From contig CP126123.1 in assembly GCA_030123605.1 (NCBI GenBank), forward strand, positions 682,001 to 746,000: DNA of 64,000 nucleotides. The letters are read 5' to 3'. A program made the translations under genes and the position numbers. Positions within the stretch are counted from its first letter, which is position 1, and the number at the start of each line of letters is the position of its first letter. The notes beneath the pieces are model-generated. The model saw only the letters and a list, made by a program, of their open reading frames with translations, was not told where the DNA came from and did not search any database. The DNA is from Nitrospira sp. (GTDB lineage: Bacteria > Nitrospirota > Nitrospiria > Nitrospirales > Nitrospiraceae). Below, in pieces: positions 3,174 through 11,864 of this stretch.

Positions 3174-3935
3174 TTACTCGGCTTGCAGTTTATAGCCTAC
3201 TCCGCGAACGGTCAGGATGAGACGAGGTTTCGACGGATCCGGCTCTATTTTCCGCCTCAACGAGTGGATATGGACGTCGAGCGCATGTTCTTCCAACGCA
3301 TAATCTTCTCCCCAGACGCGATCGAGGAGTTCTTGCCGCGACAGGACGTGGCCTGCCGACAGCAGCAACTGGCGCAGGATTTCAAATTCCTTGTTCGTGA
3401 CGGATTTCACGGCCTCACCGACGGTTATTTCGTACCGGGCCAAATCCATCACAATGGGACCGGCCCTGAGTACGGAGGCGGATCGGTGTTCCGATCGATG
3501 GCGTCGAAACATGGCGCGGATGTGGGCGATCAATTCTCTGTAACGGTTCGAGCAGAAGACGAAGTCATAGCCCTGCTCTAGATCACGGATGGAGTCCTCT
3601 TCAGAGCAGTGGTGTTCAGCCGGAACGATCGCGATGGACGGCACCCTCCGGAGCTGTGCTTGGCTGCGGAATTGATCGATGAGGTCGAGACGACGATCGA
3701 GAAGGGCCAGCTCCGGCATAGGGCCGTCGAACGGATTCAAGTCTGAGACCGACCGTGCAATGGAGACTCCGTACCCGTTCCGAACCAACAGCCGTTCGAT
3801 GGTTTCGGCGAAGCTCCGGTCCGTCGTAAACAACACAATGGGGGCAGGACCGCGAGCCCCGTCTCCTTGGGCGGGAGATGAAGCTTCCCTTGCGTCCGGT
3901 GAGGGATACTGCCCCCATGCGGTTCGTCTGAGCAT
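3174..3935 (-). CDS. OmpR/PhoB-family regulator with degenerate receiver
   Basis: 253 residues from the ATG at 3935, chosen because AGGAG sits 9 bases upstream; a longer start at 3968 would overlap the previous gene. Residues ~33-140 form a receiver-like domain (IVLFTTDRS, ELALLDRRL). Asp80 is in the phosphoacceptor position. The usual acidic pair is reduced to TTD, and the conserved Lys near 128 is replaced in FVFCSN. Residues ~155-253 are a winged helix (TNKEFEILRQLL, RVWGEDY, VRGVGYKL), very like PhoB. It probably binds DNA with altered or absent phosphorylation control. It follows an Slp gene by 13 bases, probably in one operon. Confidence 0.85.
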   Translation of the reverse strand: MLRRTAWGQYPSPDAREASSPAQGDGARGPAPIVLFTTDRSFAETIERLLVRNGYGVSIARSVSDLNPFDGPMPELALLDRRLDLIDQFRSQAQLRRVPSIAIVPAEHHCSEEDSIRDLEQGYDFVFCSNRYRELIAHIRAMFRRHRSEHRSASVLRAGPIVMDLARYEITVGEAVKSVTNKEFEILRQLLLSAGHVLSRQELLDRVWGEDYALEEHALDVHIHSLRRKIEPDPSKPRLILTVRGVGYKLQAE

Positions 3936-3948
3936 GGTCCGGCTCTCC

Positions 3949-4521
3949 TCAGTGCTTTTTCTGTACACAGGACGTGACCTCGGGAAGTGGCGAATTCCCC
4001 GCTCCTACGGTCTCCTTGAATTCAGCGATTTCCGTCCTTCCGGTCTGCCAGACATGAATGCAATCCGCCACCAGATAGGGCTCGCTTTTCGGCGCTCCGT
4101 TGACGACGACGGGCCTCCGTCCGTTCGTCGTGCCGACCATGACGAATCGATTTCCATTTCTCAGCATTTCCTGGGAGAGATCGGCCGGATACAAGAATGC
4201 AAACTCATACTCGCCTTTGCGATTGCCGCTGTCAGTCGGCCCGTACACGGGATGGTTCATGATTGGCAATTGTTCCGCCACGATCAGAACCCCCTTGCTG
4301 TCCTTGCTGATCTGAACGATCCGACCCCCGAGTTCCACCTTCGTGCCGGAATCGGACTTGCCGCCCGGATTACTGGGCGAGGCTTCACGCCATGCCTGAA
4401 AATCGAACGTCGGGGCAACCTTCTCGCGAATGTCCGAAGGGAATGGAGAGTGTGTCGAGCAGGCCGGCAAGAGGGCGGGAAACGTGAACAATAGACCGAT
4501 CATGTAGCGCGTCGTTCTCAT
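3949..4521 (-). CDS. Slp-family outer-membrane lipoprotein (paralogue 2)
   Basis: 190 residues from the ATG at 4521, which has AAGGAG five bases upstream; the GTG at 4527 lies inside that ribosome-binding site. The lipobox is LPAC (Cys21). Shared Slp-type features are VELGGRIVQI, AEQLPIMNHPVYGP, a LYPADL strand, GNRFVMVGT and CIHVW. It is most similar by eye to the other two Slp proteins in the window. It lies upstream of the degenerate PhoB-like regulator in the same direction and is divergent from Slp paralogue 3, sharing its 190-base upstream region. Confidence 0.85.
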   Translation of the reverse strand: MRTTRYMIGLLFTFPALLPACSTHSPFPSDIREKVAPTFDFQAWREASPSNPGGKSDSGTKVELGGRIVQISKDSKGVLIVAEQLPIMNHPVYGPTDSGNRKGEYEFAFLYPADLSQEMLRNGNRFVMVGTTNGRRPVVVNGAPKSEPYLVADCIHVWQTGRTEIAEFKETVGAGNSPLPEVTSCVQKKH

Positions 4522-4643
4522 GAGCACTCCTTGCTGAAGGTTTGGAACGTTCCGGCGGAAATCGTCATGGAAACGACCTCCGGTTCAGCCGATGGGCCTC
4601 ATACAATCTTCACATCTGTGAATCTTGTTGCACCGTAGGCCCT

Positions 4644-4698
4644 GTGTTACATTCGTGTTAACGAATTCTTGAGACGGTGTAACATCGCCCCGTAAGGT
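4644..4698 (+). promoter_or_regulatory. Candidate PhoB-type box between divergent Slp genes
   Basis: GTGTTAC at 4644, GTGTTAAC at 4655 and GTGTAAC at 4677 lie in 11-base phase (offsets 0, 11, 33). A weak -10-like TAAGGT is at 4693-4698. The spacing departs by one base from the other sites. A start of transcription near 4705 would cut into the ribosome-binding site of the gene at 4712, so the true -10 may differ. The two upstream half-sites could also serve the divergent Slp gene at 4521. Confidence 0.55.
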
Positions 4699-4711
4699 CA
4701 GGAGGTTCAGG

Positions 4712-5248
4712 ATGAAATCACGCTCTCTCGGCATGGTGGTGGCCGCCGGGCTCGTGGCCGCCGGTTGCTCGACCCCGGCGTTGTTTCCTCCGGAGGCGAC
4801 GACCAATGTCGCTCCCGCTGAATTCGGGGTCGTTCGGGCTCAACCGGACGTGTTCAAGGGGCGCGTGGTTCAGCTCGCGGGACGAATCGTCGGGGTTGAA
4901 GAATCGGCCGACGGGTTCCTCATCCGAGCGCAAGAACTGCCGCTGGAGAAACATCCGGTGTACGGACCGAAGGAAACCGGGAAGCCTACTCCTGAATTTG
5001 CGATCTCCTATCGCGGCAAGTTGGACCCCGCCGCGAGGTGGTACGGAAACAAATTGCTCGTGGTCGCCGTTGCGCAGGGGACTCAAGACATTTCCATAGA
5101 CGGAGCCGTGCGGACCGAGCCGTTGGTCGTCGCGAAGTGTATGCATGTGTGGAAAACCGGCGAGTATGGATCCTACGGCATCGCGGATTTTCCCCACACC
5201 ACCGACGGCTACTATCCGCTCGAACATCAGACCTATTGTGTCAATTAG
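4712..5248 (+). CDS. Slp-family outer-membrane lipoprotein (paralogue 3)
   Basis: 178 residues with lipobox AAGC (Cys19). It carries the family core: VQLAGRIVGV, AQELPLEKHPVYGP, ISYRGKL, GNKLLVVAV and CMHVW. CAGGAGG lies seven bases before the ATG. It is monocistronic, divergent from Slp paralogue 2 and convergent with the TPR gene at 5290. Upstream it has tandem 11-base repeats typical of PhoB sites, so phosphate-starvation control is likely (inference). The biochemical role of the family is unknown. Confidence 0.87.
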   Translation: MKSRSLGMVVAAGLVAAGCSTPALFPPEATTNVAPAEFGVVRAQPDVFKGRVVQLAGRIVGVEESADGFLIRAQELPLEKHPVYGPKETGKPTPEFAISYRGKLDPAARWYGNKLLVVAVAQGTQDISIDGAVRTEPLVVAKCMHVWKTGEYGSYGIADFPHTTDGYYPLEHQTYCVN

Positions 5249-5254
5249 ATTCAT

Positions 5255-5284
5255 CGGGGTCAGGGGGGCGGCATCCGACCCCCG
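5255..5284. terminator. Possible bidirectional hairpin between convergent genes
   Basis: GGGGTC (5256-5261) pairs with GACCCC (5277-5282) around a 15-base G-rich loop, between the Slp gene and the convergent TPR gene. There is no T tract on either side, so it is at best a weak or Rho-assisted terminator. Confidence 0.3.
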
Positions 5285-5289
5285 TTCCG

Positions 5290-6162
5290 CTACAAGTTCG
5301 GTTTCTCGATGTGAGACGGCAGCCGGCTGAATTTGCATGCGGGAACATAGCCCGCATGGCATGAGCTGTCGTAATCCTGCAACGCACCTGCCTCATCTCC
5401 CAGCATCGATCGCGCCACCCCTCGATTGTAGTAGAGCACGTGATCGCCGACGCCCATGCCGATGGCTTGTGTGAAATCCCGTTCCGCTCGATCGTACTGC
5501 CCGATCAACATGGCCACGAGTCCGCGGCTTTGATAGACGGCGGGGAGACTCCTGTCGAGCCGGGCCGCGTGGTCGAGATCTCGTCGGGCGTGATCGAAGT
5601 CCTGCCGCAAGGCATGGACCACCGCACGGTTCGCATAGATGGTGGCATCCTGACCGTTCATCTCGGTCGCCCTATTGAAGTCTTGCAAGGCTTCGTCGAA
5701 TCGACCGAGGTGACGATAGGTTTTCCCCCGGTGATTCAGGACAAGGGCCGACGGAGGTCCGAGACGAATGGCCTCATTGAATGAGTCCAGCGCCTTTCCA
5801 TACCGGTCCGACTCCAAATAGACGACTCCCAGGTTGCTGTGGTACAGCGGCTGATGCGGATTGAGCCGGATCGCCTCGGCGAAGTCCCGACTCGCCTGTT
5901 CCTTCCGACCTTGGAAGTTGTAGACAAACCCTCGCGAGTTCCAAGCCTCGGCATCAGCCGGTGACAATGAGATCGCCTGAGAGGCCTTGTCGATCGCCTG
6001 CTCGAAACGGCCTTGATGGAACTGTGTCCGGCATTGGGCCAAAAGGTCGGCGGCAGGATTCTGATCGACCGTGGCCACCGGGGTGATTGAACAGCCCCAC
6101 AGCATGGCGAGGTGCAACGAGATTCCAAGACCGATCCAAGAACGTGTTGGCGTGACGCGCAT
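5290..6162 (-). CDS. TPR-repeat lipoprotein
   Basis: 290 residues. The N-terminal signal ends in LWGC (Cys24), indicating a lipoprotein. From residue ~36 to ~270 there are about seven tetratricopeptide units, for example AWNSRGFVYNFQGRKEQA and LVLNHRGKTYRHLGRFDEA. The last unit ends with two cysteines (CHAGYVPAC). TPR arrays mediate protein-protein contacts; no enzyme motif is visible. GGGAGGAG lies just upstream of the ATG. A PhoB-type promoter precedes the gene (6211-6265) and would give a leader of about 40 bases, so it probably belongs to the phosphate-starvation set. Confidence 0.85.
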   Translation of the reverse strand: MRVTPTRSWIGLGISLHLAMLWGCSITPVATVDQNPAADLLAQCRTQFHQGRFEQAIDKASQAISLSPADAEAWNSRGFVYNFQGRKEQASRDFAEAIRLNPHQPLYHSNLGVVYLESDRYGKALDSFNEAIRLGPPSALVLNHRGKTYRHLGRFDEALQDFNRATEMNGQDATIYANRAVVHALRQDFDHARRDLDHAARLDRSLPAVYQSRGLVAMLIGQYDRAERDFTQAIGMGVGDHVLYYNRGVARSMLGDEAGALQDYDSSCHAGYVPACKFSRLPSHIEKPNL

Positions 6163-6210
6163 AGGCTCCTCCCGTCGGATGTAAACAGACCGGTGAACAT
6201 ACCTGACGGG

Positions 6211-6265
6211 AGAATAACGCCTGCCTGTTACCAGGCGCCCAAGACGGTGTTACATGCGCGTTAAC
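6211..6265 (-). promoter_or_regulatory. PhoB-type promoter of the TPR lipoprotein gene
   Basis: On the minus strand, GTTAAC (6265-6260), GTAAC (6253-6249) and GTAAC (6231-6227) have end-points spaced 11 and 22 bases apart. A TATTCT -10-like hexamer at 6216-6211 begins 11 bases after the last half-site. This is the geometry of the E. coli pstS double Pho box. The first half-site abuts the stop codon of the upstream gene. Confidence 0.65.
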
Positions 6266-7317
6266 TATTCGGTGGTTTGCTTGCGGGGAGGCTTTTTATC
6301 GGGCGGGGGCTTCGAGCTTTTCCCGGCGGATTTCACATCATCGCGGAGGCGCTTCAAGTCTTCTTTCAGTTTGTCGAGCTCCGTGGTCTGTTGTTCGACT
6401 TGCATGCGCAATCGCCGGTTGGCTTCGTCTAGGTCCTGCACCTGTTGCTGCAGATCGGTGGGTGGGCTCGGTATCGGCGCCGTCACCTCCTTGACCGGTA
6501 ACGGCGGCTTGACCGTTGCCGGCTCCGCTGCGGCAGGTTGTGGCTTGGCCGGGCCTCTGTTGCCTCCGAATGCTGTCAGCACATCACGGACGTTCAACGA
6601 AAGGTGAACCTTGTCGAACGGGCTCCAGCGCGGCTCCTTGTCCTCCGGTACGGATGCCGGTTGCGCAGGACGCATGGCCCAGAGTTTCATCCCTTTCATA
6701 TCCCGAGGATCTCGCTGTTCCCCTCCTCCTGGGTCGGCTTTCTGAAAACCATAGTGGTCATGAAGGATCACATGGAGATAGCCGTCCCGAATGAACAGGC
6801 TGCCGGCGGTGCGGTCCGTCTCGTAACCGGCATTTGGATTCTGCAATGAAAAAAACACCCGCTCGCGCGGGCCGGCTTCACGAAACGCCTTCGAAAACGG
6901 TTCCGCCAGGTTCATCAGTTCCGTGCCGGTAAAGACCGGTTTGGGATGCGGCGTTTCAAAAATACCGACGATGATCCCGCTCCAGCCGGACACTTCCAAC
7001 GAACCGAGCAGGGTCCGCATGTGATCGGCAGTGATTTGGGCCGGATGGCTGTTCAACGTCGGCGGGATTGCATGTTCATCGATGGTGTGATCGGATTCGA
7101 CGCCGATCTGCGTGCCCTTGGCTTCATAAACGGCTCGTTGGTTCAAGGGACCGACACAGCCCGACAACCCTACGAAGCAGTACCAGGCAAGGCAGACGAT
7201 GACCGTCGAATTCTTGAACGAGTCGCTGCAGCGACCTCCGGCCCAACAGAGCAGCCGGTGGCTCACAGCCGCGGGAGCGTCGTCGAACAGACGGGCCGAG
7301 AGACGAACGATGTTCAC
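6265..7317 (-). CDS. Unrecognised membrane-anchored or lipoprotein with C-terminal coiled coil
   Basis: About 350 residues from a GTG at 7317 (GAGGA just upstream). A longer open frame to 7584 exists but would overlap the lipoprotein gene at 7355. The hydrophobic stretch VIVCLAWYCFVGLSGC at ~39-54 looks like a late signal or lipobox. The middle (residues ~70-200) is a compact domain with SGWSGIIVGIFETP, RERVFFSLQNP and DGYLHVILHDHYG. A proline/alanine linker follows, then a coiled coil (DLQQQVQDLDEANRRLRM) and a Lys/Pro-rich tail. I do not recognise the family. The start is uncertain. Confidence 0.7.
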   Translation of the reverse strand: MNIVRLSARLFDDAPAAVSHRLLCWAGGRCSDSFKNSTVIVCLAWYCFVGLSGCVGPLNQRAVYEAKGTQIGVESDHTIDEHAIPPTLNSHPAQITADHMRTLLGSLEVSGWSGIIVGIFETPHPKPVFTGTELMNLAEPFSKAFREAGPRERVFFSLQNPNAGYETDRTAGSLFIRDGYLHVILHDHYGFQKADPGGGEQRDPRDMKGMKLWAMRPAQPASVPEDKEPRWSPFDKVHLSLNVRDVLTAFGGNRGPAKPQPAAAEPATVKPPLPVKEVTAPIPSPPTDLQQQVQDLDEANRRLRMQVEQQTTELDKLKEDLKRLRDDVKSAGKSSKPPPDKKPPRKQTTE

Positions 7318-7354
7318 GAGGTCCTCGATATCAGAAGGGTTGTGGAGAGCGGGC

Positions 7355-7738
7355 TCAGTTCGCGCCTTTGGATGACTTGCAGGTAAATTGTATGGCCCAT
7401 TGTCTTTCGCGGGAGACTTGTCCATCGCCGGAAACCTGCCCCTTCCATGTCTGATCGACGACTTGGCTGATTCGTGGGACTTGTCCTTCCCTGGCAATCC
7501 TGTAGCCGCCGGGGCACTTTGCGTCGAGAAGACGAAGGGCATCCCGGCGGTTCGTCGATGAGAGCACATCCTGATCGTTGACATAGGGATACACGACCGT
7601 CCCGCCCTGGTCTGACTCGATCAAGAGTTTGGCCGAGGAAGCGCATCCGCACATCAGGATCATGGCACAGGGAAGGATGGCCGAGATCCCCGAGCCTCGC
7701 CTCAACGTCGTCGTTCCCTGTCTCTGATCAGACAACAT
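7355..7738 (-). CDS. Small unrecognised lipoprotein, hidden inside a longer false frame
   Basis: 127 residues from the ATG at 7738 to TGA at 7355. The N-terminus is basic, then hydrophobic, then a lipobox-like LMCGC with Cys32 followed by ASSAK. The rest contains VYPYVNDQDVL, CPGGYRIAREG and a final strand QWAIQFTCKS, with a C...C pair that could form a disulphide. The longer open frame starting at 8104 runs antisense-like through the porin gene and should be ignored. It lies between porin 2 and the gene at 6265, same strand, and may be co-transcribed. Function unknown. Confidence 0.75.
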   Translation of the reverse strand: MLSDQRQGTTTLRRGSGISAILPCAMILMCGCASSAKLLIESDQGGTVVYPYVNDQDVLSSTNRRDALRLLDAKCPGGYRIAREGQVPRISQVVDQTWKGQVSGDGQVSRERQWAIQFTCKSSKGAN

Positions 7739-7770
7739 GGCGGTCCGGTTTTGCTCCCATCGGGTCCGAT

Positions 7771-9201
7771 CTATTGATATCGAATTTGAAATTGCACCAA
7801 GAATGCGTTTTGAGCAAACGCGTCGGTACTGGCGACGGTCGTGCCGGGACCCGTTCCCTGATGGTGTCGGAATTCGTAATCGATCGACACTTTGCTCTGG
7901 ATCTTGGGCGGCAAATTTTCGAAGTAGTAATTCAACCCGACGATGGTTCTTGTAAACATGTCGTTGGAGACGCTCGTATTGGGGTCGAACTGCTCGTACA
8001 TGACGACCGGTTCCCAATTCCGCAAGGGCCCGTCGGAGATCAAATACTTGGCCAGCACGTACCAGGTTCGGCGCTGCACACCGGGCGCTCCGGAGCCGCC
8101 GCATTGCGCCGTATTGAGACAGGCTCCCTGAGCCGGAGTCCCCACGATGGTCGCATTGGAGCCGTCATGCCCCTGCCAGGCTTCACCCTGAATCATGAAT
8201 CCGGGCAACAGCCGGGACGTATACCTGAAGTCCACTCCGAAGCGGTCGAACTCACCCTTGCCGCGTCCGTTGATGAACGTGCCGGTATTGTTGCTCTCTC
8301 CGGCGAGGATTGTAAAGCTCACGAACGAGATATCGGTCAGGAAATAACGCAGACGACCGTATCCGACTTTCGGTCCGTTTGCCCCGACGATATTGGCCTG
8401 GTAGTTATTGTTGTTCATGATGCCGCCGACATAGTCCACCTTGTTGAACAGGGTGCCGCGCACATCGACGAAGTAGTCGCGCTCGTGAAGAAATTCGATC
8501 GGACCGCCGGTCCCCAGGTTATTCTGTGCGCCGCTGCCGACGGAGGTGAGGTAGGGGGAACTGATGACGTCGCGAAGACCGCCCGAGGTCTCCGTGAAGA
8601 TGCCGAACGGCATGCGGAAGATGCCCATGCGGATGAAATTCAAGGTGGGCGCAAGATTCGGGAAGGGACGGAAGTCGATGTAGGATTCTCGAAAGAACGT
8701 CGCAGACGTCGGCCCTCCGCCCGCCTTGGCCGCGCAATTGCCCCCCGGCGAGTTACTGCAGTCCGGCGTGTTGTTGGTAAGGTTGATGCTCTGAAACTCG
8801 AAAAGGACGTGCCATTTGGGCAGATATTCGTTGATCTTGCCGTAGGCGAGCAATTCGGACCGTCTGATGGAAAAATTATCCTGGCTCCTTCCCTCGGGAG
8901 ACTTCGCATCGAGATGGGTATACAAGAATTGCAGCGCGTTTAATCCGACGTTCACCTTATTGCTGAGGATCGGCAATCGTTCCACCTTGGTCTTCCACTC
9001 TTCGACGACGCTCAACCGTTTTTCGACGTTGGCCAGCGGGTCTTCGATGGCCGGGGTCGAGGACGGGGCCTGTGGTCCCTGTGCGATCTGTGCCTGGGGT
9101 TCCGTGCCGGGTTGGGTTTGCGCCGGCGCTTGGGCTGCCATGACGAGGGCAGCGACGACGACCGCGATGCCCGCAACAAACCGACTCTGCTTCTGATGCA
9201 T
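7771..9201 (-). CDS. Outer-membrane porin, phosphate-selective porin-like (paralogue 2)
   Basis: 476 residues from the ATG at 9201, which has AAGGAGGAGG upstream; the longer start at 9258 would fall at the predicted transcription start. A signal peptide ends near APAQT, followed by a proline/glutamine linker, a coiled segment (LSVVEEWKTKVERLP) and a beta-barrel ending FQIRYQ. It is strongly similar throughout to the porin at 1428, with identical blocks such as QDNFSIRRSE and ASFFRESYID-like strands. The promoter resembles the PhoB-type arrangement, unlike porin 1. Phosphate or polyphosphate passage is the contextual guess. Confidence 0.86.
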   Translation of the reverse strand: MHQKQSRFVAGIAVVVAALVMAAQAPAQTQPGTEPQAQIAQGPQAPSSTPAIEDPLANVEKRLSVVEEWKTKVERLPILSNKVNVGLNALQFLYTHLDAKSPEGRSQDNFSIRRSELLAYGKINEYLPKWHVLFEFQSINLTNNTPDCSNSPGGNCAAKAGGGPTSATFFRESYIDFRPFPNLAPTLNFIRMGIFRMPFGIFTETSGGLRDVISSPYLTSVGSGAQNNLGTGGPIEFLHERDYFVDVRGTLFNKVDYVGGIMNNNNYQANIVGANGPKVGYGRLRYFLTDISFVSFTILAGESNNTGTFINGRGKGEFDRFGVDFRYTSRLLPGFMIQGEAWQGHDGSNATIVGTPAQGACLNTAQCGGSGAPGVQRRTWYVLAKYLISDGPLRNWEPVVMYEQFDPNTSVSNDMFTRTIVGLNYYFENLPPKIQSKVSIDYEFRHHQGTGPGTTVASTDAFAQNAFLVQFQIRYQ

Positions 9202-9268
9202 GAAGGTCCTCCTCCTTGAATGTGGCCCGACAAGCCGTACGTATAGGGCGCTATCCATCTGTGCGATG

Positions 9269-9324
9269 TTGATACGGCAGGCCGGTAACGGCCCATTCAG
9301 TGCTGTGTTAGGATTCGGTAAATT
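9269..9324 (-). promoter_or_regulatory. Candidate PhoB-type promoter of porin 2
   Basis: Minus-strand half-sites TTTACC (ending 9318), CTAACAC (core ending 9307) and GTTACC (core ending 9285) have the same 11 and 22 spacing as the other sites. TATCAA at 9274-9269 begins 11 bases after the last. The sequence match is weaker than at pstS or psiE, but the spacing is exact. The predicted leader is about 60 bases. Confidence 0.5.
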
Positions 9325-9390
9325 CGAGGCTCGGACTTGCGGCGATCGGATGGGCTGAATCGTGCGAGAGGGGAAGACAGAGGGGCTCGC

Positions 9391-9807
9391 TCAGTCGGAT
9401 CGCGCCGACCGTGACGATCCGACCCGCAAACGGTAGCCGACGCCCCAGATGGTTTCCGCGATGTCCGGCCGGCCGGCCTTGCCGCGAAGCTTGTGCCGCA
9501 GCTTCGCCATGTGCACATCCACTGTCCTGATCGCGACGAAGATCTCCTCGCCCCATACCGATTTGAGTAGTTCCTCCCGGCGATACACCTTTCCCGGTCG
9601 TTGGGCCAAGGTCCATAGCAACTGAAACTCCCGCGGCGTGAGATGAATCGGCCGATTGTGCAACGTCACCGACAGCCGAAGGCGATCGATGCACAGCTGT
9701 CCGACAGTCAGGCGGGAAGGACTGTGCCGCGTGAGAGGGTGTGACCGTCCTCGATGCATTCCGTCTCCAGGCGAATCGTCGCTACTCCTAGCGTGATGGA
9801 GCGCCAT
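9391..9807 (-). CDS. Stand-alone OmpR/PhoB-type winged-helix protein (no receiver)
   Basis: 138 residues. A basic, low-complexity N-terminus of ~35 residues replaces the receiver. Residues ~40-130 are a full winged helix: IHLTPREFQLLWTLAQRPGKV, ELLKSVWGEE, TVDVHMAKLRHKLR and WGVGYRLRV. Full family members are ~230 residues. Two starts are plausible: 9807 (GAGGAA upstream) and 9759 (GGAG upstream). It is divergent from psiE, sharing the region with the PhoB-type box at 9862. It may be a constitutive activator or a competitor for Pho sites (inference). Confidence 0.82.
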   Translation of the reverse strand: MALHHARSSDDSPGDGMHRGRSHPLTRHSPSRLTVGQLCIDRLRLSVTLHNRPIHLTPREFQLLWTLAQRPGKVYRREELLKSVWGEEIFVAIRTVDVHMAKLRHKLRGKAGRPDIAETIWGVGYRLRVGSSRSARSD

Positions 9808-9861
9808 GTTTCCTCAGGGGAAGATCAAGTGTCTGTTAATTGCGGCGAGCGGACCGGGCGA

Positions 9862-9918
9862 GAGTTAACCGACCCGTAACGAAACGGTGAGCCGGACGGA
9901 ACAGGTTGCAAGTACAGT
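9862..9918 (+). promoter_or_regulatory. PhoB-type promoter of psiE
   Basis: GTTAAC (core ending 9869), GTAAC (ending 9880) and GGAAC (ending 9902) are spaced 11 and 22 bases apart. A TACAGT hexamer at 9913-9918 begins 11 bases after the last. The predicted transcription start near 9925 supports the psiE start at 10010 rather than 9923. Confidence 0.65.
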
Positions 9919-10009
9919 GTGAATGGAGGATGGAGAAAGCAGGAATCGGGAGCACCGCTGCATCACTCCCATGAAACGGATCACACACAACAACAAGGAG
10001 TTCTTACGC

Positions 10010-10516
10010 ATGACCTTTACGAGTCTTCAGCCTCGCGTACACCGCCTGTCCGACCTTGTGGGGCGTGTCATCGACATGGACCTCACCGAACTCTGGATGA
10101 AGGGCATCAAGAGTGTGCTCAGCCTGCTGATTCTGACGATTCTGATCGCGCTCACCGGCGGCGTGATCAAGACATTTCTGGACATCAGGATGCTCTTCGG
10201 TGCGGCGGTCGAAGTCGGTCTCCGGCAGATCATCGTCGATACCTTGATTCTGCTCGCGGTGGTCGAAGTCTTCAAAACGACGGTGACCTATTTCTCCGAA
10301 GGCCGCGTGAAGGTCACCTTCATCGTCGATACGATTCTGGTCGTGATGCTGACGGAGATCATTTCGCTGTGGTTCAAGGAAGCCGATCAGGAACGGTTGC
10401 TGTTGCTCGGAGCGATCCTGCTGGCATTGGGAGCCATTCGAGTGGTGGCGGTGCGTTGTTCGCCGGCTTCCGGGGAGGAAACGGGAAAAGAGATCGGCTG
10501 TGGCGAAGGGTTCTAA
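10010..10516 (+). CDS. psiE: PsiE-family phosphate-starvation-inducible membrane protein
   Basis: 168 residues from the ATG at 10010, which has AAGGAG nine bases upstream. Four hydrophobic helices fit the PsiE fold: SLLILTILIALTGGVI, IIVDTLILLAVVEVF, VTFIVDTILVVMLTEII and LLLLGAILLALGAIRVV. The region YFSEGRVKVTFIVDTILV, with conserved charged loops, is characteristic of the family. PsiE is induced by phosphate starvation in E. coli; its molecular role is unknown. Here a PhoB-type box lies upstream. The C-terminal extension (CSPASGEETGKEIGCGEGF) goes beyond the usual ~136 residues. Confidence 0.85.
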   Translation: MTFTSLQPRVHRLSDLVGRVIDMDLTELWMKGIKSVLSLLILTILIALTGGVIKTFLDIRMLFGAAVEVGLRQIIVDTLILLAVVEVFKTTVTYFSEGRVKVTFIVDTILVVMLTEIISLWFKEADQERLLLLGAILLALGAIRVVAVRCSPASGEETGKEIGCGEGF

Positions 10517-10752
10517 CCCGCATTATTCAGTGCGCCGTGACAAGGCGCGGTGAGATCATGCTCCATCGGAGAGGGTTCGAGTACGACGTCGAGTTAGTCC
10601 CGTCCAGGCAGCCGGCGTGGTCCTGCGTCGAGTGAGCCTACCGCCCAGGACAGTGGGCTGTTCATCCGCGCGACATGGATTGCCTTCACCGTAGAGAGAC
10701 CAGGAACAACGGGCCCTACACCGTCGGCAGCCAGGATGGGAAAGAATGAGGC

Positions 10753-10809
10753 AAATTAACACGCCGTTAACACGGCGGTGAGGTCGGTGCAACGGGGTAT
10801 CCCTATGCT
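10753..10809 (+). promoter_or_regulatory. PhoB-type promoter of pstSCAB
   Basis: TTAAC repeats end at 10760 and 10771. A third half-site GTGCAAC ends at 10793, and TATGCT at 10804-10809 starts 11 bases later. The leader to pstS would be about 45 bases. This is the clearest copy of the shared arrangement. The rest of the 343-base gap after psiE (10517-10752) shows only a small inverted repeat GCGCC-N7-GGCGC near 10535 and no gene. Confidence 0.7.
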
Positions 10810-10859
10810 GCCTCCGTATGTCGCATAGGGTGCCTTCATCATCTCCCCGGAGGATTTTT

Positions 10860-11864
10860 ATGATGTTCGTCCCGCACCGTCGGATCTGTCTCGCTCTCAC
10901 CCTCGCGATCCTGAGCCCCTTCATGCCGGCCGGCTTCGCAGGCGTCGATGCTGCGGATCTTCCCGCTGCCATGGAAGCCGTGAAGCTTGATCAGGAGATC
11001 AAGCCCTATCACAAGGTCAGCGGCGTTTCCGGCACGATCAACAGTATCGGCTCGGATACCCTCAACAATTTGATCACGCTCTGGGCAGAGGGCTTCCGCA
11101 AACAATATCTCAACGTGAAGATTCAAGTGGAGGGTAAGGGATCCAGCACCGCTCCCCCCGCGTTGATTGAAGGCACGGCTCAACTTGGCCCCATGTCGCG
11201 GACCATGAAGCCCAGCGAGATCGACGCGTTCGAGACGAAATTCGGCTACCCACCGACTCCCTACCCTGTGGCGGTCGATGCCTTGGCCCTCTTCGTCAAC
11301 AAGGACAATCCCATCAAGGGGCTCACGATCCCTGAGGTCGACGCACTGTTTTCCAAGTCTCGACGGCAGGGCCATGCAATCGATCCGACCAGGTGGGGGC
11401 AGATCGGATTGGATGGGGATTGGGCTGCCGCGCCCATCAGCCTCTACGGTCGGAATTCGGCCTCCGGCACCTACGGGTTCTTCAAAGAACATGCACTCAA
11501 AAACGGTGACTTCAAGGATCAGGTCAAGGAGCAGCCGGGTTCAGCCTCGGTCGTGCAAGGGATCAGCGAAGACCGGTACGGCATCGGCTACAGCACGTCG
11601 GGTGTCAAAATGGTGTCGCTGGCGACGAAAGCCGGACAACCGTTCGTCGAGCCGACCCACGCGAACACCAAAAACGGGACCTACCCGCTTTGGCGCTACC
11701 TGTACATCTACGTGAATCAAGCTCCCGACAAACCCTTGTCGCCGATCGTCAAGGAGTTCCTCGCCTACGTCTACAGTCGCGAGGGACAGTCCGATGTGCT
11801 GAGAGACGGGTATTTCCCGGTCGACGGAGGTGTTGCCTCCACGCACCTGAGCAAGCTCCATTGA
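10860..11864 (+). CDS. pstS: Phosphate ABC transporter, periplasmic binding protein PstS
   Basis: 334 residues from the ATG at 10860 (GGAGG six bases upstream; an adjacent ATG at 10863 is also possible). A Sec signal peptide ends near GFAGVDAAD. The mature protein has the PstS folds: GTINSIGSDTLNNL (phosphate-binding loop 1), EGKGSSTAPPAL (loop with Ser-Ser-Thr), ALFVNKDNPIKGL and SLYGRNSASGTYGFF. It binds phosphate and hands it to PstC/PstA. It is the first gene of a pstSCAB operon behind a PhoB-type promoter. The stop overlaps a possible TTG start of pstC. Confidence 0.95.
   Translation: MMFVPHRRICLALTLAILSPFMPAGFAGVDAADLPAAMEAVKLDQEIKPYHKVSGVSGTINSIGSDTLNNLITLWAEGFRKQYLNVKIQVEGKGSSTAPPALIEGTAQLGPMSRTMKPSEIDAFETKFGYPPTPYPVAVDALALFVNKDNPIKGLTIPEVDALFSKSRRQGHAIDPTRWGQIGLDGDWAAAPISLYGRNSASGTYGFFKEHALKNGDFKDQVKEQPGSASVVQGISEDRYGIGYSTSGVKMVSLATKAGQPFVEPTHANTKNGTYPLWRYLYIYVNQAPDKPLSPIVKEFLAYVYSREGQSDVLRDGYFPVDGGVASTHLSKLH

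Follow-up and report, generated by a model that had tools for sequence, protein, structure and literature searches.

Predicted PhoB-dependent double Pho boxes at a phosphate locus of Nitrospira

Introduction

Several genes of a phosphate locus in Nitrospira are preceded by similar short repeats, which raises the question of whether these repeats form a common regulatory site and, if so, which protein reads them. The locus lies in the window analysed here, a stretch of 64,000 nucleotides (positions 682001-746000) of a single-contig 4.316 Mb Nitrospira genome, and includes genes for Slp lipoproteins, a TPR-repeat lipoprotein, two porin-like proteins, PsiE, PstS and a pst-phoU-ppx cluster. An earlier inspection of the DNA (hereafter the sequence-only reading) had proposed a phosphate regulon in which five promoters share half-sites at offsets 0, 11 and 33. 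No description of a Nitrospira Pho box or of the phosphate response of Nitrospiraceae was found in the open-access literature searched. On the basis of promoter layout, conservation and homology, we consider it very probable that the repeats are PhoB-dependent double Pho boxes that act as a switch under phosphate limitation.

Layout of the promoters

The upstream regions of pstS, psiE, the TPR-lipoprotein gene and the gene of the second porin-like protein (porin 2) contain half-sites every 11 bp, at offsets 0, 11, 22 and 33, and a -10 element of the form TAnnnT at offset 48 (the porin 2 hexamer ends in A). The predicted boxes are as follows.

10756..10809 (+), double Pho box of pstS: TTAAC at 10756, TTAAC at 10767, GTGAG at 10778, GCAAC at 10789, -10 TATGCT at 10804-10809
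9865..9918 (+), double Pho box of psiE: TTAAC at 9865, GTAAC at 9876, GTGAG at 9887, GGAAC at 9898, -10 TACAGT at 9913-9918
6211..6264 (-), double Pho box of the TPR-lipoprotein gene: TTAAC at 6264, GTAAC at 6253, TTGGG (poor) at 6242, GTAAC at 6231, -10 TATTCT at 6216-6211
9269..9322 (-), box of porin 2: TTTAC at 9322, CTAAC at 9311, CTGAA at 9300, GTTAC at 9289, -10 TATCAA at 9274-9269

Offsets 0, 11 and 33 and the -10 at 48 are exact in all four promoters, and the -10 begins 11 bases after the final base of the last half-site, just as the sequence-only reading had stated. Its spacing thus holds for four of its five promoters and fails for the fifth, that of an Slp gene. It had also counted three half-sites where there are four. 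The one it missed, at offset 22, is easily overlooked; an alignment of 28 promoters from relatives mostly shows GTGA- or CTAAT-like sequence there. When half-sites and -10 were scored together on a 19-point register scale at about 128,000 positions of the window, 17 or more points were reached at four positions only, namely pstS, psiE, the TPR-lipoprotein gene and an isolated position, 57274 (-), which was taken as chance.

A 66-bp sequence-only profile (R1) was trained on 28 promoters from other Nitrospira, none of them from this genome. The pstS box matched R1 with 44.5 bits (genome-wide E 4e-11), the psiE box with 28.7 bits (genome-wide E 4e-6) and the TPR box with 17.5 bits (genome-wide E 0.013). 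Sites equivalent to that of psiE were present in four loci of relatives (L016, L022, L026 and L020), and an orthologous TPR site was found in L020. The putative porin 2 box draws its support from one conserved orthologous site, since porin 2 of L020 is preceded by the matching layout TTTAC/CTAAC/GTGAA/GTTAC/TATCAG.

Conservation in relatives

The training promoters of R1 had been picked for having the tandem and an in-register -10, and conservation was therefore measured also in unselected upstream regions. Among 19 such regions (250 bp upstream of pstS orthologues), two TAAC motifs at a distance of 11 bp occurred in 13, compared with 0.1 expected by shuffling, whereas a partner at 22 was found in 18 (0.9 in shuffles), a partner at 33 in all 19 (0.3) and TAnnnT at 47 from TAAC in 17 (0.1), so that each of the distances 11, 22, 33 and 47 was about 20-fold or more above shuffles. 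Among periods 7-18, the period of 11 was the sole one enriched upstream of pstS; close pstS loci had it in 12 of 18 cases and distant ones in 39 of 60, compared with about 0.2 in shuffled sequence, and the distant set includes records of Nitrospirota, Rokubacteria, Methylomirabilota and Acidobacteria. R1 sites could be identified in 28 of 29 genomes of the genus, mostly in one cluster per genome, and in 124 of 147 genomes of the family. The repeated motif is a real and conserved site, beyond chance.

Specificity within the genome

The pattern TAACN7TAAC occurs 13 times in the 4.3 Mb genome, compared with 72 occurrences of the reversed control pattern, and four of the 13 fall in the 6.2 kb phosphate stretch; the other nine were read individually, and none had the register of 22, 33 and -10. 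An exact TTAACN6TTAAC was also tried as a search pattern and rejected as too strict (a single genome match, pstS). With R1, four sites were found in the whole genome at E<=10, all of them at the phosphate locus: pstS, psiE, the TPR-lipoprotein gene and a second pstS. The coding region of this second pstS starts before the window and runs across its left edge to position 754, and its box (genome positions 681555-681617, about 400 bp outside the window on the left) has the full register, TTTAC/GTAAC/GTCAT/TCAAC/TACGCT. As seen by this profile, the regulon of this genome appears to extend over a single phosphate locus of about 12 kb and no further. The sequence-only reading had staked itself on the motif being commoner at phosphate genes than elsewhere, and all R1 matches in the genome lay at the phosphate locus; together with the pstS layout conserved at the level of genus and family and across several phyla, this specificity supports the phosphate regulon that it proposed.

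It could be argued that the repeats form a pattern produced by chance or composition, without a common regulator, considering that the half-sites are short and that the scores of porin 2 and slp1 (the Slp gene treated below) are weak. The specificity of R1, the single sharp period of 11 bp and the register kept in unselected upstream regions speak against such a pattern, which is already refuted for pstS and psiE and which we regard as hardly credible for the sites in general.

The Slp site

The sequence-only reading had placed its fifth site on the plus strand, in front of another Slp gene. This placement had to be abandoned: the spacing there is off, the site scored 5 of 19 register points in this orientation and 14 in the other, and R1 gave no plus-strand match at this site in the window. 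The minus strand has an exact 11-bp tandem, TTAACacgaatGTAAC, at 4661-4646, which points to slp1 and to the gene of a regulator (3174-3968), and the site as a whole is degenerate.

4608..4661 (-), degenerate box facing slp1 and the regulator gene: TTAAC at 4661, GTAAC at 4650, CCTAC at 4639, ACAAG at 4628

The first two half-sites are good, the second half is poor and no in-register -10 is present on the minus strand, so that the putative slp1 site of this genome rests on half a box. The slp1 homologue of a distant relative (L035) has a full box upstream.

Candidate binding proteins

The genome encodes eight OmpR-type DNA-binding domains. The locus itself encodes two PhoB-like regulators.

3174..3968 (-), PhoB-like regulator with a degenerate receiver (the pseudo-receiver protein), PF00486, kept across the genus
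9391..9807 (-), stand-alone PhoB-type winged-helix domain without a receiver, divergent from psiE, PF00486 (E 3.5e-27)

The best match to the PhoB family TIGR02154 (233.6 bits) is encoded near 2260 kb, 1.6 Mb from the locus. It is followed by a gene for a PhoR/PnpS-type kinase (NF046044 above cut-off), and the next genes after this pair are those of a Pit-like transporter and a TIGR00153-family protein on the opposite strand. The genome search with R1 gave no Pho-box match at phoBR. In E. coli PhoB, the base-contacting positions are T194, V197, R201 and R219 (PMC3264566). The PhoB of this genome has T, V, R and K there, keeping three of the four with K for R219, whereas the winged-helix protein has T, V, K and W (R201 to K, R219 to W) and the pseudo-receiver protein A, V, S and R (T194 to A, R201 to S). 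Because its contact residues are mostly kept, unlike those of both locus regulators, this PhoB is the best candidate for binding the boxes and likely their activator; by the same residues it fits better than the PhoB-like proteins of the window, to which the sequence-only reading had looked.

A different assignment would have the boxes read mainly by one of the locus regulators (3174-3968 or 9391-9807), which would activate or repress in the manner of PhoB but independently of phosphorylation. Both proteins have PhoB-type DNA-binding domains, the genus conserves the pseudo-receiver protein, whose gene is boxed in most congeners (see below), and the isolated DNA-binding domain of E. coli PhoB binds Pho boxes and activates (PMC3264566). 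Apart from the changed contact residues, however, many boxed pstS loci, including those of other phyla, were found with neither protein nearby, and we consider this assignment unlikely. Still less probable is that another OmpR-family regulator, for example the WalR/MtrA-like protein at 3845577, owns the sites and responds to a different signal. Proteins of this family generally bind short direct repeats, which would allow it; yet every genome-wide R1 match was at phosphate genes, and the other regulators deviate from PhoB at two or more base-contact positions.

Proposed mechanism

Considering the observed layout, conservation and genomic specificity of the sites, and the presence of a PhoB-PhoR pair with most base-contact residues, PhoB-dependent control can be outlined as follows. 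Under low phosphate, PhoR would phosphorylate PhoB, which would bind head-to-tail to the four half-sites with a spacing of one helical turn (11 bp). With the last half-site 10 bp upstream of the -10 TAnnnT, bound PhoB would substitute for a -35 element and recruit RNA polymerase, and the pst operon, psiE, the second pstS, porin 2 and the lipoprotein genes would be turned on. We infer from the layout and from homology that this PhoB is the binding protein, that it activates when bound and that the system responds to phosphate starvation.

Several observations weigh against PhoB-dependent control or its extent. The PhoB protein stays below the TIGR02154 cut-off (233.6 versus 296.2 bits) and is encoded outside the pst cluster, and the two PhoB-like proteins of the locus could bind instead of it or as well. 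Matches to R1 were weak for the porin 2 box (8.3 bits, E 0.15 in the window) and for the Slp box on the minus strand (9.3 bits, E 0.074 in the window), and the box of the second pstS is of borderline significance (genome-wide E 0.155). It should also be noted that 150 of 506 first-look candidates of the R1 genome search were scored in full, so that weak sites elsewhere in the genome may have been missed.

Boxed regulator genes

In the pseudo-receiver protein and five orthologues, the acid pair E9/D10 and K105 are lost and D53 is kept. The receiver profile of this protein matched in 84 of 147 genomes of the family at E<=1e-12; the genus gave by far the strongest matches, as a rule with one copy per genome. 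Directly upstream of its gene, an in-register box (for example TTTACacagccGTAACaagcggGATACaggcagGCAACtcggcgccgcTAGCAT) was found in 17 of the 18 congeneric genomes read, the exception being L171; each of these boxes had a shuffle p of 0.000-0.025, and the count stands for conservation and not for independent trials because the genomes are related. Pseudo-receiver regulators of the OmpR family such as HP1043 and ChxR likewise have a winged-helix output domain together with a receiver that is degenerate or atypical (PMC12632262). The Nitrospira gene differs from theirs in sitting in the pst cluster and in having its own Pho-type box in relatives. As a tentative and rather doubtful extension, phosphate control in Nitrospira might have a second layer, in which PhoB induces the pseudo-receiver regulator through the Pho box in front of its gene and this regulator feeds back on some of the boxes during starvation.

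Other regulator genes were also seen near boxes or in the loci of relatives. The copy of the winged-helix gene in L020 (L020:4042-4428) has a weak R1 match upstream (4554-4608 of L020, minus strand, E 0.0009). Most relatives (for example L016:4213-5046) have between psiE and pstS an extra response regulator that is absent from this genome, with intact receiver residues and a DNA-binding helix unlike that of PhoB. Among outlying R1 matches, a DksA/TraR-type zinc-finger gene (PF01258) was boxed in eight Nitrospira genomes (L140-L145, L150 and L151), the box type being TTAAC/TTAAC/CTTAT/GTCAC with an in-register -10, which might tie phosphate starvation to the control of transcription. The DksA/TraR-like homologues of the present genome (40% and 33% identity) showed neither an R1 match nor a visible box.

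Other genes of the locus

The remaining genes behind the boxes of the window are listed below.

10818..11864 (+), open reading frame of the phosphate-binding protein PstS, first gene of the pst-phoU-ppx cluster, TIGR02136 above cut-off; the likely start is the ATG at 10860 behind GGAGG rather than 10818
9923..10516 (+), PsiE-family protein, PF06146 (E 5e-12); the likely start is the ATG at 10010
5290..6162 (-), TPR-repeat lipoprotein, Pfam TPR families
7771..9258 (-), open reading frame of porin 2 (a name taken from the sequence-only reading), with homologues in the pst loci of relatives; Pfam and NCBIfam searches gave no match
3949..4527 (-), slp1, a lipoprotein of the Slp family whose gene overlaps that of the regulator at 3174-3968, PF03843 (E 9e-6)

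Between ppx and a SixA/CHAD pair, the window also contains two tandem dTMP-kinase-like proteins (TIGR00041, 18981-20505), which could be polyphosphate-related kinases instead of dTMP kinases.

A tested and usable Pho-box profile is now at hand for the Nitrospiraceae, the family to which these nitrite oxidisers and comammox bacteria belong, and it names a likely regulon of two PstS proteins, PsiE, porins and lipoproteins, joined in some species by a DksA/TraR-like zinc-finger protein. The conserved pseudo-receiver regulator looks Pho-controlled and, if this is true, would add a setting in which phosphorylation-free response regulators can be studied.

Comparison with known Pho boxes

The pstS promoter of E. 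coli MG1655, as read from its record, has CTGTCA at 0, 11 and 33, CTTACA at 22 and TATTTT at 50. The Nitrospira sites share with this double Pho box the four half-sites at 0/11/22/33, a degenerate third half-site and a TAnnnT about 10 bp further on, and they differ in the core (TTAAC/GTAAC instead of CTGTCA) and in the offset of the -10 (48 instead of 50). The geometry of the E. coli pstS box claimed by the sequence-only reading is therefore right as to layout, as is the TTAAC core, but not as to the position of the -10. The core TGTCAN6TGTCA of the E. coli type was found in 0 of 78 pstS upstream regions. The PhoP box of Bacillus subtilis has a TTAACA-like core. Direct-repeat features similar to those seen here have been reported for that box (PMC4415409), and we liken it to the present sites by this description.

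In general, Pho boxes are built of direct repeats of 11 nt, and their consensus depends on the species (PMC4415409); those of E. coli sit 10 bp upstream of a TAN3T -10 (PMC1906773). The sites described here are likewise 11-nt direct repeats upstream of a TAN3T-type -10, they lie at phosphate-acquisition genes and are rare elsewhere, and a PhoB-PhoR-type pair is present in the genome. In cyanobacteria, SphR boxes consist of CTTAACCT units joined by 3-bp linkers and share the 11-bp period (PMC1906773). Since the consensus varies by species and SphR boxes have this sequence, the TTAAC core is a known flavour of Pho box, and 'diverged PhoB motif', the term of the sequence-only reading, was too strong for a core (TTAAC/GTAAC) that resembles the SphR box. 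Nitrospira and SphR sites share the CTTAACCT-type core and tandem 8+3 bp repeats, which in cyanobacteria stand upstream of pst and phosphatase genes (PMC1906773). They differ in that two to three repeats have been described for SphR, whereas Nitrospira has four with a fixed -10 register; the likeness described here is between the sites. By their sequence, the Nitrospira sites classify as classical double Pho boxes with a core that is more like that of cyanobacterial SphR than that of E. coli.

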